Of a DNA stretch of 64,000 nucleotides, positions 30,488 through 42,330 are shown in pieces. The position numbers and the translations under genes are program-made. The notes beneath the pieces were generated by a model that worked only from the letters and a program-made list of their open reading frames with translations, was not told the DNA's origin and did not search any database. The stretch is taken from contig OV696605.1 of the NCBI GenBank assembly GCA_927797885.1, forward strand, positions 2,951,157 to 3,015,156. The letters are read 5' to 3'. Each line of letters starts with the position of its first letter. Position 1 is the first letter of the stretch. This DNA is from Gloeomargaritales cyanobacterium VI4D9. GTDB lineage: Bacteria; Cyanobacteriota; Cyanobacteriia; Gloeomargaritales; Gloeomargaritaceae.

Positions 30488-30575
30488 TAGCTTCTATACC
30501 ACCGAGAACAGGGCTTAAACTAATTTCCTGCCCACCAATTACCGGGTCATAGTTGCTTGGATGGTTATCACTCAT
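30426..30575 (-). pseudogene. HEAT-repeat-like protein, N-terminal fragment
   Basis: A 49-codon frame starting MSDNHPSNYDPVIGGQ and continuing SPVLGGIEAIKSALRSNDYEV before it runs into the antisense of the tnpB fragment and stops. The Gly-Gly-Ile-Glu-Ala-x3-Leu pattern resembles the start of cyanobacterial HEAT-repeat proteins, but the assignment is tentative. Its ATG overlaps the stop of the AAA ATPase remnant, so both once formed an operon. It was truncated by the rearrangement that brought in tnpB. Confidence 0.5.
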
Positions 30576-30866
30576 AGGAATCCACCTCAATGGGATGCGA
30601 ACCACGTTTCTGAACCAAGTTATTCAGTTCTGCAACCAGATGCTCATCCCGAGAAGCCACCCTTGCCCCTGACTCGGCTGCCCACCGTTTCAACGCCTCA
30701 ATTTGCGGCTTAGCAATACTGGCTAAAGGAACCATTTGGTTGATGCTGTGCAGAATATCCCCCTGCTGAAACTCCCGTGGTGGTTGTTCATTAAACGCCC
30801 GGTGCATCGCATCATAAACACATTGCTCAATCTCCGCACCGCTGAAATCCTCACTGTAACGCGCTA

Positions 30867-31788
30867 TAGCTAAGCAGGCAAAGGTTGGCATATAGAGTAG
30901 ATGACTGAATCTATAAGATCATGAAGATTTTGGGTTGTAGATGTCATGGTTTTTCTAACTCTTTGCTTGATGCCATTGATGCTCGGGAGAGTATTTCGGT
31001 AGATATATCAATTCGCACCCAGCGGCTTCCACAACCTTCCTAACCAGTTGGCAACGATGAAAACTTGCATTATCTAAAACAATTTTCTTCCCTGCTCCAA
31101 TTGTTGGCAACAACATCTCTGTTAACCAGGTAATCAATACTTGCAAATTACAACTACCAATCCCAGTAAATGGTGCAACCATTTTCCCTAAATGATAACC
31201 ACTCATCATGCTTATTCTCTCTCTCTTTTTGCCAGGTCGTTGACCATATATTCTTTGTCCTTTTAGCCCCCAACCATATTCATAAATATCTCGATTATCC
31301 ATCCCAGACTGGTCAATATAGACTAAATCTTCATTCTTTTCCTCTTGCATCATCTTGATAAATTGTTGTCGCTCTTCTTCGTTTTGTTCTTCATAAGAGT
31401 ATGTTTTTTTTTACGGGTAAAGTTGATTTTTTTAAGGGCTTGACCAACGGTTGTATGGCTTACACCGAGAATGACTCCCATTTCTTTTTGCGTCAACCCT
31501 GGATTTGCTTCTACAAATTGGCGAAATTCCTCCCAATCAGTGATCTTAGCACTATGACCCTTTTGATAGTTCTGTTTCGGGCGATAATCACCAGTTTCTG
31601 ACCACATTTTTAACCATCTTTGTACGGTTCTGATGCTAATACCAAATCACTCACTAACCTCAACTAGTTTTGCCCCATTTAAGACTGCTTCGACTGCTTT
31701 TTGACGCAAATCGTAACTGTATGGTCTTGCCATCGCTTTTCTCCAAAACATCTATTCTATAATAGGACGACCTTACCCTGCTTGACTA
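30867..31788 (-). mobile_element. IS630-type insertion sequence, 922 bp, decayed
   Basis: The ends TAGCTAAGCAGGCAAAGG (30867-30884) and the complement of TAGTCAAGCAGGGTAAGG (31771-31788) form an 18-bp imperfect inverted repeat. The element is flanked by the dinucleotide TA on both sides (30865-30866 and 31789-31790), the target duplication of the IS630/Tc1/mariner superfamily. Removing the element and one TA restores the AAA ATPase frame (DEL-ARYSED). The transposase inside is damaged. Confidence 0.92.
30870..31733 (-). pseudogene. IS630-family transposase, degraded
   Basis: The start MARPYSYDLRQKAVEAVL leads into a helix-turn-helix region that is interrupted by an in-frame TGA (VEVSE-stop-FGISIRTVQRW). 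The first frame continues through MWSETGDYRP to NFTRKKKH, where an A-run (about nine A) precedes a switch to the second frame (TYSYEEQNEEERQQFIKMM). Such A-runs are frameshift sites in IS630 elements. The second frame has DDE residues in VYIDQSGMD and KKIVLDNASFHR, and LPKYSPE directly followed by HQWHQ, so the usual LNPIE segment seems deleted. A further shift after HQAK truncates the C-terminus. It is almost certainly inactive. Confidence 0.88.
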
Positions 31789-33238
31789 TAGTTCATCTAA
31801 TTGAAAATCCCGAATCCGACTAGGTCGCACCCGCTCCAGATGCACTCGCCATATCTCTCGCCGCTCTGGCTCAGTTGGTAAATTCAGAAAGAAAATTTCG
31901 TCAAACCGACCTTTGCGTAACAATTCAGCGGGTAAAACCTGGACATTATTGGCAGTTGCTACAATAAAAACGGGCTTGGTCTTCTCTTGCATCCAAGTAA
32001 TCAAACCACCAAAAACTCGCTTACTGGTGCCAGAATCCCCAGAATATTCACCGCCCACACCTCCAAAGGCTTTATCAATTTCATCCAACCATAAAACACA
32101 AGGAGCCATTGCTTCCGCAATTTGGATCATCTGACGGGTTCTGCCTTCACTTTCTCCCACAATACCCCCAAACAAACGACCCGCATCCAAACGTAATAAG
32201 GGCATACGCCACTCTTGAGCAATGGCTTTGGCAGACAGCGACTTACCCGTGCCTTGAATACCCACTAAAAGCACCCCCTTCGGTGTAGGTAAACCATATT
32301 TTGCCGCTTGCTCTCCAAAGCTATTCCGCCGTTGCCTTACCCATTCTTTTAGATTCTCTAATCCCCCCACACTACTCAGGGTTGCAGAAGCAGGATAAAA
32401 CTCTAAAATTTCGGTTTGCCGAATATATTGCTTCTTCTCCTCTAAGACTAAATCAATATCCTTCTCCGTGACCTGATTCTTTTGGGCTAACGCTCTCGCC
32501 AAAATGCGTTGAATCCGCTGACGAGTCAACCCCTGACAAGCCCGAATTAATTGCTCTTGACCTAACCCTTGTATTTTTAATCGCTCTGGCGGAACTGTAG
32601 TTCTAATCAACTCCTGTATTTCCGTCAAACCTGGTAATGGAAAATCAATAATTACCATCTCTTCCTTTAATTCTGCCGGTACTACAGAAACATGGCTCAA
32701 GAGAATTATGGTTTTCGAGAACTGCGTCCCTCCCTCACCAATCTTTTTAACTGTCTAATTACCGGATAATTTTCACTCCGCTGTGAATTTTGTAAAATCG
32801 GTAGCATATCTTTCAAAACAAAAATAGCGGGCTTTTCTGCTGAAAAACTCACAATCCTTTGCAGTGCAGACATCACCTGCCCCTTACACTGCCCATTATC
32901 TTCCCAACCACCGACTAAATCCCAAAACAATACCTCACGGGTGGGTTTGATAATGTTCGCTGTTTGTACAATAGCCTCCTCAACCGGTTCCTCCTCAGCA
33001 CTGACAATTAACAACAGAGGACACCGAGCACGGATTATCAAATCTAAATATGATAATGTTCTTTCATCGAGCATCGGGATTTTTATTAAAGCTTGCGATT
33101 TTATTTTATCTCGTTGGGTCGAATACCCCGCCCTTCTAGGGCGGACTAACTCCCGGGGTTTACCCCGTGGGTTCATACCCTTGATTGCTTTTTGCGCTTA
33201 TACAGCGGGTCTGACAGCATACCTTTGCAGATGAAGCA

Positions 33239-33778
33239 TCACCCCAGCAGTTCATCGGCACTAAAGACCAGTTCCCGGAATTGCAGGGGGGTTAGGGATT
33301 GCCCTGGGCGCAAAATCTCTGATTTCCCTTGGCGGTAAACTTCGAGACAATCTTCATCCAAGTTAATTAACCACACTTCGGGAATGCCTGCTGATAAATA
33401 TAGGGGAACTTTTACCCCCCGGTCGTAGGTAATGGTGGTATCGGCAACTTCAATGACCCAATAAATGTCAGGGGGCGTAGGATGTCCTGTCACGTAAAAA
33501 TCATCCCGCCAACGGACAATCGCCACATCTGGTTGGGGTTCTGAATCCGCCAGAGTAATGGGGTCTTGAATGCGCTTCATTGCTCGCCTCCCCAAACATT
33601 CGAGCAGATAACTGATACGACCACAACAGGCGGCGTGACGACGATTAATCGGGGACATTTTAATAAGCTCTCCATGAATCAACTCCAGCCGGTCATCGGG
33701 GGTAAAAATGCCAGCATCAATCATCTGGTGATATTGTTCAACGCTGAACCGGTGGCGAATCATCTCACTGGTGGACAT
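33239..33778 (-). CDS. Uma2 family nuclease, tandem copy 1
   Basis: 179 residues. PD-(D/E)XK-type elements of Uma2 proteins: SEPQPDVAIVRW (Asp), YWVIEVADTT (Glu) and YDRGVKVPLYLSAGIPEVWL (Lys). It begins MSTSEMIRHRFSVEQYHQMI. Residues about 50-72 (AACCGRISYLLECLGRRAMK) differ sharply from the other array members, while the flanks are almost identical. The C-terminus (LRPGQSLTPLQFRELVFSAD) is also somewhat diverged, making this the most distinct copy. The role of Uma2 proteins is unproven; nuclease activity is inferred from the fold. Confidence 0.9.
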   Translation of the reverse strand: MSTSEMIRHRFSVEQYHQMIDAGIFTPDDRLELIHGELIKMSPINRRHAACCGRISYLLECLGRRAMKRIQDPITLADSEPQPDVAIVRWRDDFYVTGHPTPPDIYWVIEVADTTITYDRGVKVPLYLSAGIPEVWLINLDEDCLEVYRQGKSEILRPGQSLTPLQFRELVFSADELLG

Positions 33779-33867
33779 GGATTTACTCCGTTGGATTGTG
33801 ATGGGTAATTTTCCCGGTTTCTTAGCTGTTTCTTACTCGCAAAAATGACTGTTTTTACATGATTATG

Positions 33868-34416
33868 CTAACCATTTCCTAACAATTCATCCACCCTAAA
33901 AACGAGTTCCGGGAATTGCCGAGGTGCGATGGTCTGCCCCCGGCGCAATATCTCTGATTTCCCTTGGCGATAGACTTCCAAACAATCTTCATCCAAATTA
34001 ACTAACCACACTTCGGGAATGCCCGCTGATAAGTACAGGGGAACTTTTACCCCCCGGTCGTAGGTGATAGTAGTATCGGCAACTTCAATGACCCAATAAA
34101 TATCGGGAGGCGTGGGATGTCCTGCTAAGTAAAAATCATCCCGCCAGCGGACAATCGCCACATCCGGTTGCGGTTCTGAATCCGCCAGGGTAATCGGGTT
34201 CTGGATGCGACATCTAGCTTTTTGCCCCAAACGGTCAAGCAACAGGTAAAGGAGGCGGTCAACCCCAGCGGCGTGACGACGATTAATCGGGGACATTTTA
34301 ATAAGCTCTCCATGAATCAATTCCAGCCGGTCATCGGGGGTAAAAATGCCAGCATCAATCATCTGGTGATATTGTTCAACGCTGAACCGGTGGCGAATCA
34401 TCTCACTGGTGGACAT
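33868..34416 (-). CDS. Uma2 family nuclease, tandem copy 2
   Basis: 182 residues, nearly identical to copies 3 and 4 outside the variable block, which here reads GVDRLLYLLLDRLGQKARCR. It has the same catalytic elements (SEPQPDVAIVRW, VIEVADTT, GVKVPLY) and the same upstream spacer (CATGGATTTACTCCGTTGGA on the plus strand) as copies 1 and 3, so promoter and gene were duplicated together. The unit length to the next start is about 630 bp. Confidence 0.9.
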   Translation of the reverse strand: MSTSEMIRHRFSVEQYHQMIDAGIFTPDDRLELIHGELIKMSPINRRHAAGVDRLLYLLLDRLGQKARCRIQNPITLADSEPQPDVAIVRWRDDFYLAGHPTPPDIYWVIEVADTTITYDRGVKVPLYLSAGIPEVWLVNLDEDCLEVYRQGKSEILRRGQTIAPRQFPELVFRVDELLGNG

Positions 34417-34494
34417 GGATTTACTCCGTTGGATTGTGATGGGTAATTTTTGCGGTTTCTTAGCTACAAAAATGACTGTTTTTACATGATTATG

Positions 34495-35043
34495 CTAACC
34501 ATTTCCTAACAATTCATCCACCCTAAAAACGAGTTCCGGGAATTGCCGAGGTGTGATGGTCTGCCCCCGGCGCAAAATCTGCGGTTCCCCTTGGCGATAG
34601 ACTTCCAAACAATCTTCATCCAAATTAACTAACCACACTTCGGGAATGCCTGCTGATAAATATAGGGGAACTTTTACCCCCCGGTCGTAGGTGATAGTAG
34701 TATCGGCAACTTCAATGACCCAATAAATATCAGGGGGCGTGGGATGTCCTGCTAAGTAAAAATCATCCCGCCAGCGGACAATCGCCACATCCGGTTGGGG
34801 TTCTGAATCCGCCAGGGTAATCGGGTTCTGGATGCGATGTAAGGCTCTTCGGTTTAACCGGTCAGCTAGTAATAAATTCAAACGGTCAACCCCAGCGGCG
34901 TGACGGCGGTTAATCGGGGACATTCTGATAAGCTCTCCGTGAATCAATTCCAGCCGGTCATCCGGGGCAAAAATGCCAGCATCAATCATCTGGTGATATT
35001 GTTCAACGCTGAACCGGTGGCGAATCATCTCACTGGTGGACAT
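34495..35043 (-). CDS. Uma2 family nuclease, tandem copy 3
   Basis: 182 residues; variable block GVDRLNLLLADRLNRRALHR. Minor changes elsewhere are FAPDDR for FTPDDR, LIRMSP for LIKMSP and GEPQILRRG for GKSEILRRG. The C-terminus TPRQFPELVFRVDELLGNG is shared with copy 2 and with the severed tail of copy 4. It looks intact. Confidence 0.9.
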   Translation of the reverse strand: MSTSEMIRHRFSVEQYHQMIDAGIFAPDDRLELIHGELIRMSPINRRHAAGVDRLNLLLADRLNRRALHRIQNPITLADSEPQPDVAIVRWRDDFYLAGHPTPPDIYWVIEVADTTITYDRGVKVPLYLSAGIPEVWLVNLDEDCLEVYRQGEPQILRRGQTITPRQFPELVFRVDELLGNG

Positions 35044-35132
35044 GGATTTACTCCTTTGGATTGTGATGGGTAATTTTCCCGGTTTCTTAGCTGTTTCTTA
35101 CTCGTAAAAATGACTGTTTTTACATGATTATC

Positions 35133-35850
35133 CTAACCATTTCCTAACAATTCATCCACCCTAAAAACGAGTTCCGGGAATTGCCGAGGTGTGATGGTCT
35201 GCCCCCGGCGCAATATCTCTGATTTCCCTTGGCGATAAACTTCCAAACCAGTAGTGTTGAACCCTGCAACAAAAGTTCATAAATTCGAGCCAGGCAAAAC
35301 ACTTAATGAGAAAATTTTTTGTTATAAATGAGAATCTAGCCCCTAAATGACAATGTTTTGTATCATCAGGTTAGATGCACATTTTGGCACAAACCCTCAA
35401 AATCTTAAGATTCAACACTTCTGCTTCCAAACAATCTTCATCCAGGTTAACTAACCACACTTCGGGAATGCCTGCTGATAAATATAGGGGAACTTTCACC
35501 CCCCGGTCGTAGGTGATAGTAGTATCGGCAACTTCAATGACCCAATAAATATCGGGAGGCGTGGGATGTCCTGCTAAGTAAAAATCATCCCGCCAGCGGA
35601 CAATCGCCACATCCGGTTGCGGTTCCGAATCCGCTAGGGTAATGGGGTTTTGGATAATATGTAATGCTTTTTGGTGCAAAAGTCTCCCTAAAATTATGTT
35701 GAGACGATTCACCCCAGCGGCGTGACGGCGATTAATCGGGGACATTTTGACCAGCTCTCCGTGAATCAATTCCAGCCGGTCATCCGGGGCAAAAATGCCA
35801 GCATCAATCATCTGGTGATATTGTTCAACGCTGAACCGGTGGCGAATCAT
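35133..35850 (-). pseudogene. Uma2 family nuclease, tandem copy 4, split by a MITE
   Basis: The gene starts at MIRHRFSVEQYHQMI, lacking the first five residues of its siblings, and carries the variable block GVNRLNIILGRLLHQKALHI. Its frame enters the 175-bp element at 35249-35423 after DEDCLEA and ends there; the severed 3' end (35133-35248) continues ...RQGKSEILRRGQTITP to DELLGNG. Removing the element and one 9-bp duplication restores the frame. The catalytic residues lie before the break, so a shortened protein of about 159 residues with an element-derived tail (EVLNLKILRVCAKMCI) could still be made. Confidence 0.92.
35249..35423 (-). mobile_element. IS4-derived MITE, copy 1 (175 bp)
   Basis: The ends CAGTAGTGTTGAACC and GATTCAACACTTCTG form a 13-15 bp inverted repeat. 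The element is flanked by the perfect 9-bp direct repeat CTTCCAAAC (35240-35248 and 35424-35432). It is the reverse complement of the equally long element at 42144-42318, and the terminal repeat matches the IS4-type element at 46104-47211. It encodes no transposase. Confidence 0.95.
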
Positions 35851-35904: not shown

Positions 35905-35976
35905 AGCGGGTAACGCGATTCGAACGCGCGACATCAACCTTGGCAAGGTTGCGCTCTACCACTGAGCTATACCCGC
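35905..35976 (-). tRNA. tRNA-Gly (GCC)
   Basis: A 72-base cloverleaf on the minus strand: acceptor GCGGGTA with TACCCGC, D-arm GCTCAGTGGTAGAGC, anticodon stem CAACC/GGTTG with loop TTGCCAA (anticodon GCC), and T-loop TTCGAAT. No encoded CCA. The Uma2 array begins 55 bases further along the transcript direction. Confidence 0.95.
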
Positions 35977-42046: not shown

Positions 42047-42330
42047 ATAGCAATCCTAAATGAGAATAGAACAGGGGTCGCAGGGGCACCGCCCCCGTCC
42101 TTGGTTCTGGGAAATTTCTGTTGGTTAATCAAATAGGATTGCTCAGAAGTGTTGAATCTTAAGATTTTGAGGGTTTGTGCCAAAATGTGCATCTAACCTG
42201 ATGATACAAAACATTGTCATTTAGGGGCTAGATTCTCATTTATAACAAAAAATTTTCTCATTAAGTGTTTTGCCTGGCTCGAATTTATGAACTTTTGTTG
42301 CAGGGTTCAACACTACTGAGGATTGCTATA
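42046..42330 (+). repeat. Dispersed repeat family A, copy 10, interrupted by a MITE
   Basis: A standard family A copy whose right terminal repeat is split: AGGATTGCT occurs at 42135-42143 and again at 42319-42327, on either side of the 175-bp element. It shows that the MITE moved after this A copy was in place. The 41791-42359 gap is accounted for by B2, A and the MITE; no gene is seen. Confidence 0.93.
42144..42318 (+). mobile_element. IS4-derived MITE, copy 2 (175 bp)
   Basis: Ends CAGAAGTGTTGAATC and GGTTCAACACTACTG; 9-bp target duplication AGGATTGCT on both sides. The sequence is essentially identical to the reverse complement of 35249-35423. The right 26 bases (AACTTTTGTTGCAGGGTTCA ...) resemble the right end of the IS4-type element (AAGTTTTATTGCAGGATTCA ...). 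Confidence 0.95.

Follow-up and report, generated by a model that had tools for sequence, protein, structure and literature searches.

Old, copy-specific alpha-1 helix types within homogenised tandem Uma2 genes of a Gloeomargaritales cyanobacterium

Uma2 proteins (DUF820, COG4636; PF05685) are putative PD-(D/E)XK nucleases, for which the structures 1wdj, 3ot2, 6okh and 9y1l are available. In many cyanobacteria theirs is one of the families that have expanded most, and the question of their function dates from at least 2005. In the stretch of DNA analyzed here (the "window", 64,000 nucleotides of contig OV696605.1 from Gloeomargaritales cyanobacterium VI4D9), four Uma2 genes lie side by side on the minus strand, nearly identical over most of their length and markedly different in one short block. 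A sequence-only reading of the window had ascribed this pattern to cassette exchange or to diversifying selection on a recognition surface. How did such a block arise and persist in genes that are otherwise so alike, and what could the encoded segment do?

Four tandem genes and their variable block

The array comprises copy 1 (33239..33778), copy 2 (33868..34416), copy 3 (34495..35043) and copy 4 (35134..35850), which carry block types A, B, C and D, respectively; copy 1 is the last gene of the array. All four ORFs match the Uma2 profile PF05685 with 97-114 bits (cut-off 27), and the active-site motif of copy 1 (H48, P83-D84, E110, K123) is intact. The repeated spacers are about 80-90 bp long, such as that between copies 1 and 2 (33779..33867, minus strand), and contain a GGAG motif shortly 5' of the start codon of each internal copy. 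The genes had been described as four adjacent units of about 630 bp. They are indeed in tandem, with start-to-start distances of 635 and 627 bp, but the third distance is 822 bp, a normal unit plus a 175-bp insertion. This insertion is a MITE (35249..35423, minus strand; terminal inverted repeats CAGAAGTGTTGAA/TTCAACACTACTG, 9-bp target duplication GTTTGGAAG) that interrupts copy 4, the ORF of which starts at 35850 and reads into the element, with a C-terminal remnant below 35249.

A tRNA-Gly(GCC) gene (35905..35976, minus strand) lies directly upstream of the array. Besides Uma2 genes, the annotated neighbors seen are this tRNA gene and ribH on the upstream side and, downstream, an AAA+ ATPase gene that is broken; no paired antitoxin gene was seen among them. 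The AAA+ gene (30568-33176, minus strand) is apparently split into several ORFs around the remnant of an IS630-type transposase; its ATPase part resembles CDC48 and proteasome-activating nucleotidase, with a weaker likeness to the anti-phage ATPase IetA.

The variable block is 57-60 nt long and encodes residues 51-70, except that these are numbered 51-69 in copy 1 and 46-65 in the ORF of copy 4. Type A (CCGRISYLLECLGRRAMKR, residues 51-69 of copy 1) is encoded at 33572..33628, type B (GVDRLLYLLLDRLGQKARCR, copy 2) at 34207..34266, type C (GVDRLNLLLADRLNRRALHR, residues 51-70 of copy 3) at 34834..34893 and type D (GVNRLNIILGRLLHQKALHI, copy 4) at 35656..35715, all on the minus strand. When nucleotide identity is averaged over all pairs in 30-bp windows, it amounts to 83-100% outside the block and drops to 45-52% inside it; the two windows lying across the block edges have 76% and 69%. 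The discrete, sharp-edged block of the sequence-only reading is therefore real, but it is slightly smaller than the 22 residues and 65 bases estimated there, at about 20 residues. Likewise, the copies are nearly identical outside the block, as had been claimed, except that the last ~30 residues of copy 1 have diverged from those of the other three.

AlphaFold2 models of copies 3 and 1 (pLDDT 91-92; 91 for copy 3) have the Uma2 fold. In structural comparisons, the model of copy 3 matches 6okh (Z 20.6, rmsd 2.1 over 164 residues), 3ot2 (Z 19.5, rmsd 2.0 over 163 residues) and 1wdj (Z 17.8, rmsd 3.1 over 166 residues). Further matches at Z 5-8, to type II/IIG restriction enzymes, NucC and Hjc, are taken as reflecting the shared PD-(D/E)XK core only. 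The core helix alpha-1 spans residues 46-63 in the model of copy 3 and 46-65 in that of copy 1, and in both models the block takes up most of this helix and continues briefly beyond its end. Alpha-1 starts with the conserved His48, and the PD, E and K residues of the motif are found elsewhere; the earlier placement of the block on an early helix away from the metal-binding residues is thus borne out by the models. The catalytic pattern (H48, P84-D85, E111 and K124 in copy 3 numbering) is invariant or nearly so among 22 sequences.

Within alpha-1, the variable positions cluster on one face of the helix, opposite a conserved hydrophobic face (100-degree periodicity, 0 of 20000 permutations). Such a periodicity is expected for any helix with a buried face. 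The composition of the variable face is mixed: 25% of its residues are large hydrophobic ones and 21% are lysine or arginine, with arginine the commonest residue. A hydrophobic dimer patch is therefore not clear from composition, by which contact with DNA or with another protein is equally possible for this face.

Helix types are older than the species, gene bodies are homogenised within them

A congeneric genome (G003) contains a syntenic array (ribH, tRNA-Gly and four Uma2 genes) with the same four helix types, A to D, and a third species (G004) has a single Uma2 copy, of type B, at the same place. The tRNA-Gly neighbor of the array is present in both of these genomes, and the locus is therefore syntenic. 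In another genome (G001), a lone B-like copy contains an in-frame TAG inside the block and is probably a pseudogene.

Between species, blocks of the same type show 4 nonsynonymous differences in 177 sites, about half the flank rate; in this array their pN is at most 0.07, and their pS is 0.22-0.56. The flanks of the same genes have a dN of 0.037-0.057 and a dS of 0.37-0.58. Within species, blocks of different types have a pN of 0.31-0.64 and a pS of 0.49-1.1, compared with a flank dN of 0.008-0.048 and a flank dS of 0.12-0.25, or 0.40-0.46 for the pairs that include copy 1 in G000. Flank dS is thus mostly lower within species than between them, while between-type blocks have a high pN; therefore, the gene bodies have been homogenised in each species and the helix types are old. 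The divergence is not drift-like, as the sequence-only reading had held, and its synonymous part is not evenly spread (0.12-0.46 in the flanks versus 0.49-1.1 in the block). The conservation of same-type blocks between species lends no support to the other part of that reading, namely that diversifying selection is ongoing.

Maximum-likelihood trees lead to the same conclusion. Blocks group by type, and a species-wise tree is rejected for them (delta lnL 128, AU p 1e-9); flanks group by species, and a type-wise tree is rejected (delta lnL 153, AU p 3e-59), also when the 5', middle and 3' flank segments are each taken separately. With phylogenies as opposed as these, the block does not simply track the history of Uma2 genes. 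The two flanks of the block also differ from one another in history: copy A groups with copy B on the 5' side, and B groups with D on the 3' side. Exchange is evident in the arrangement of the array. Counted from the tRNA, the types run D, C, B, A here versus D, A, C, B in G003, and the last gene of the array has an older 3' end in both genomes, yet it is of type A here and of type B in G003.

These data show that the four block types predate the species, are conserved within type and have survived gene conversion on both sides, and that the bodies of the tandem copies are near-identical through such conversion. We are highly confident of this pattern of a protected block in homogenised bodies. 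Chance or ordinary drift is ruled out by the block and flank rates and by the opposed trees, and relaxed constraint in the block is ruled out for this array by the conservation of orthologous blocks. Neutral random conversion also fails to account for the pattern: in simulations of such conversion, run without a heterology barrier and matching the observed flank homogenisation, none of the 1500 runs at each of five tract lengths kept four distinct blocks.

The block is nonetheless separable from its flanks by recombination, and to this extent the idea of cassette exchange survives. In one syntenic pair (G000:3090360/G003:1828737), the block has a pS of 0.75 and a pN of 0.42, whereas the flanks have a pS of 0.36 and a pN of 0.15; several other young pairs also have both values raised in the block. 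Because pS and pN rise together, these cases point to an old block in a younger flank, not to rapid amino-acid change. Limited block swapping thus does occur, at a few loci. In the array itself, as represented in two species, neither a new block type nor the import of new cassettes was seen, and the earlier claim is not supported there. In a Uma2 cluster that is syntenic between two species (L091/L096), the helix block of one gene has been replaced, which makes this locus a candidate for direct replacement of a cassette.

Alpha-1 in other Uma2 families

The present genome has about 50 Uma2 genes; the genus has 48-63 per genome, judged from its three best genomes, and other genomes searched have up to 114. 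A common profile served to compare 142 Uma2 genes drawn from five genomes; on this profile, the outer face of alpha-1 corresponds to columns 24, 27/28, 30/31, 34/35 and 38/39. Thirteen families have close paralogs inside one genome, and in 11 of them the 20-column window with the greatest divergence falls on alpha-1 (binomial p ~2e-9, or 2e-8 leaving out this array); the remaining two have no island at this helix, a point against the reading proposed below. On average, paralogs have a mismatch of 0.455 in the block versus 0.094 outside it, and orthologs (31 pairs) one of 0.10 versus 0.061. Some orthologs in other families differ more at block positions than in their flanks, again a point against that reading. 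In distant Uma2 pairs, most other columns are as variable as those of alpha-1, a profile that rules out the notion that the helix is merely the loosest part of the family.

The opposed histories of block and flank also recur. Four clusters (WNRQ-2059, SDH, GTQNH and GSGH) have type-wise blocks and species-wise flanks, both significantly so; in a fifth (WNRQ-995), the block result is present and that for the flank is not significant, and LHG, a pair whose members are dispersed, gives no sign of homogenisation. Beyond the genus, tandem pairs with the island come from an Oscillatoriales genome (L042), another cyanobacterium (G015) and a Chloroflexota MAG (L037); in this last pair the difference reaches further downstream. 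The viral contigs searched for relatives yielded one distant match.

A second Uma2-like array (L132, G000:2913400-2921500) comprises ten tandem genes and has no alpha-1 island, and the same is true of its six-gene counterpart in the congeneric genome (L152, G003:530500-535400). In these genes the nuclease part is almost identical, and what varies is the number of C-terminal coiled-coil-like repeats (QQELIQKEQVLEQT units), a variation that recalls that of the repeats in Rpn nucleases. Repeats of the coiled-coil type are typical oligomerisation elements.

Possible roles of alpha-1 and known parallels

Each gene of the array encodes a putative Uma2 nuclease of the PD-(D/E)XK type, and gene conversion has homogenised its body with those of the other tandem copies. 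We propose that alpha-1 beyond the active-site His serves as an ancient, paralog-specific identity element, with selection acting against the loss of its distinctness. Through the exposed face of the helix, each protein would recognize its own partner, most likely another copy of the same protein in a dimer or oligomer. Many nucleases that are almost identical would in this way be able to coexist without forming mixed assemblies. At a few loci, occasional recombination has joined a helix type to another body. That alpha-1 is a paralog-specific recognition surface, most likely an interface preventing cross-assembly, is a role inferred from the evolutionary pattern, and we hold it to be evenly balanced between right and wrong. 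A broader proposal falls somewhat short of that balance and is offered tentatively: Uma2 proteins may form orthogonal homotypic sets for which alpha-1 is a private assembly code, and selection for distinct codes may have split the arrays of cyanobacteria and Chloroflexota into a converting body and a protected code. By analogy, the arrays that lack the island and vary a coiled-coil-like tail instead would favor an oligomer, and the variable helix of Rpn, as a dimer interface, would favor partner matching.

The main functional rival to partner matching is DNA recognition. In this view the evolutionary regime is the same, but the variable face of alpha-1 would touch DNA, every type would have a target of its own, defined by sequence or structure, and the array would amount to four nuclease specificities. 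A repertoire of specificities would explain why the types are retained, the variable face includes the lysine and arginine content noted above, and the His at the start of alpha-1 has been proposed to bind metal or substrate (PMC551604). However, the block is the portion of alpha-1 beyond that His, the four blocks here lack a strongly basic character, and the second array varies its coiled-coil-like tail and not alpha-1; we consider this explanation unlikely, if the strongest of those that compete with ours.

Two other explanations concern how the block came to be and persist, rather than what it contacts. If the paralogs had once diverged throughout, conversion might have spared only the stretch that was too different to exchange, and the island could persist through this heterology barrier, as a relic with no function beyond folding and no selection for distinctness. 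The differing flank histories (A+B on the 5' side, B+D on the 3' side) imply that conversion tracts end near the block, and the synonymous sites of the block are near saturation, that is, old, both of which suit such a relic. Yet other columns, equally variable in distant pairs, were homogenised, the relic would have to fall on alpha-1 in 11 of 13 families, and the L132/L152 genes form a homogenised array with no such island. A pure relic seems less probable to us than DNA recognition. Least probable, and in our estimation quite improbable, is the view that blocks are imported or swapped and rapidly diversified in a self/non-self system or an arms race with phages. It can draw on the few loci with old blocks in younger flanks, on the block order that differs between the two species and on the inclusion of related proteins in PADLOC as phage-defense candidates (PDC-S03), but it is at odds with the presence of the same four types, with few amino-acid changes, in two species, with the absence of any new block type from this array and with the signature of recombination, not of fast amino-acid change, in several young pairs. 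Mutagenesis of the kind caused by diversity-generating retroelements, which shares with this locus a short variable stretch with sharp edges, is rejected: in the aligned blocks the differences involve all bases, not adenines alone, and the types have stayed stable from one species to the other.

The array compares with known systems as follows. Feder and Bujnicki, who described the Uma2 family along with its tandem copies, proposed that it spreads selfishly by means of recombination (PMC551604), and a 2009 survey of toxin-antitoxin systems lists Uma2 as a likely solo toxin in cassettes of paralogs (PMC2701414). With the family as these papers present it, the array shares its sequence family, fold (Z 16-21), H-PD-EXX-K motif, cyanobacterial expansion and tandem paralog cassettes; it departs from them in having a paralog-specific, trans-species alpha-1 segment in homogenised copies. 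No description of a variable Uma2 helix was found in the excerpted literature on Uma2, DUF820 and TT1808. The Rpn (YhgA-like) toxin-antitoxin nucleases are also PD-(D/E)XK proteins that occur in arrays and have a single variable helix, which is the dimer interface and has been shown experimentally to set partner matching (PMC10327210). Unlike the array, Rpn varies among strains by C-terminal four-residue repeats and makes an intragenic antitoxin; here, it is an internal helix (51-70 of 182 residues) that varies, by substitutions that are conserved between species, and there is no separate C-terminal variable domain. The closest evolutionary parallel that we found is MHC class I. In the partial concerted evolution of the HLA-E type, the residues used in recognition retain their orthology, and the rest of the gene becomes homogenised in each species (PMC1403747). 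This is comparable to the sparing of alpha-1 here, although those are vertebrate immune genes for an unrelated protein and these are tandem bacterial nucleases.

The array is a clear bacterial case, comparable to vertebrate MHC, of concerted evolution that spares one protein segment. In many independent families, evolution marks alpha-1 as the part that needs to differ between copies. The vague question of Uma2 function may accordingly be narrowed to short experiments on these helices, concerning assembly, partner choice and target.

The MITE that interrupts copy 4 has 44 matches in the genome, 14 of them identical and full-length; this count suggests that the element has been active recently. 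A second identical copy lies within the window, at 42144-42318.
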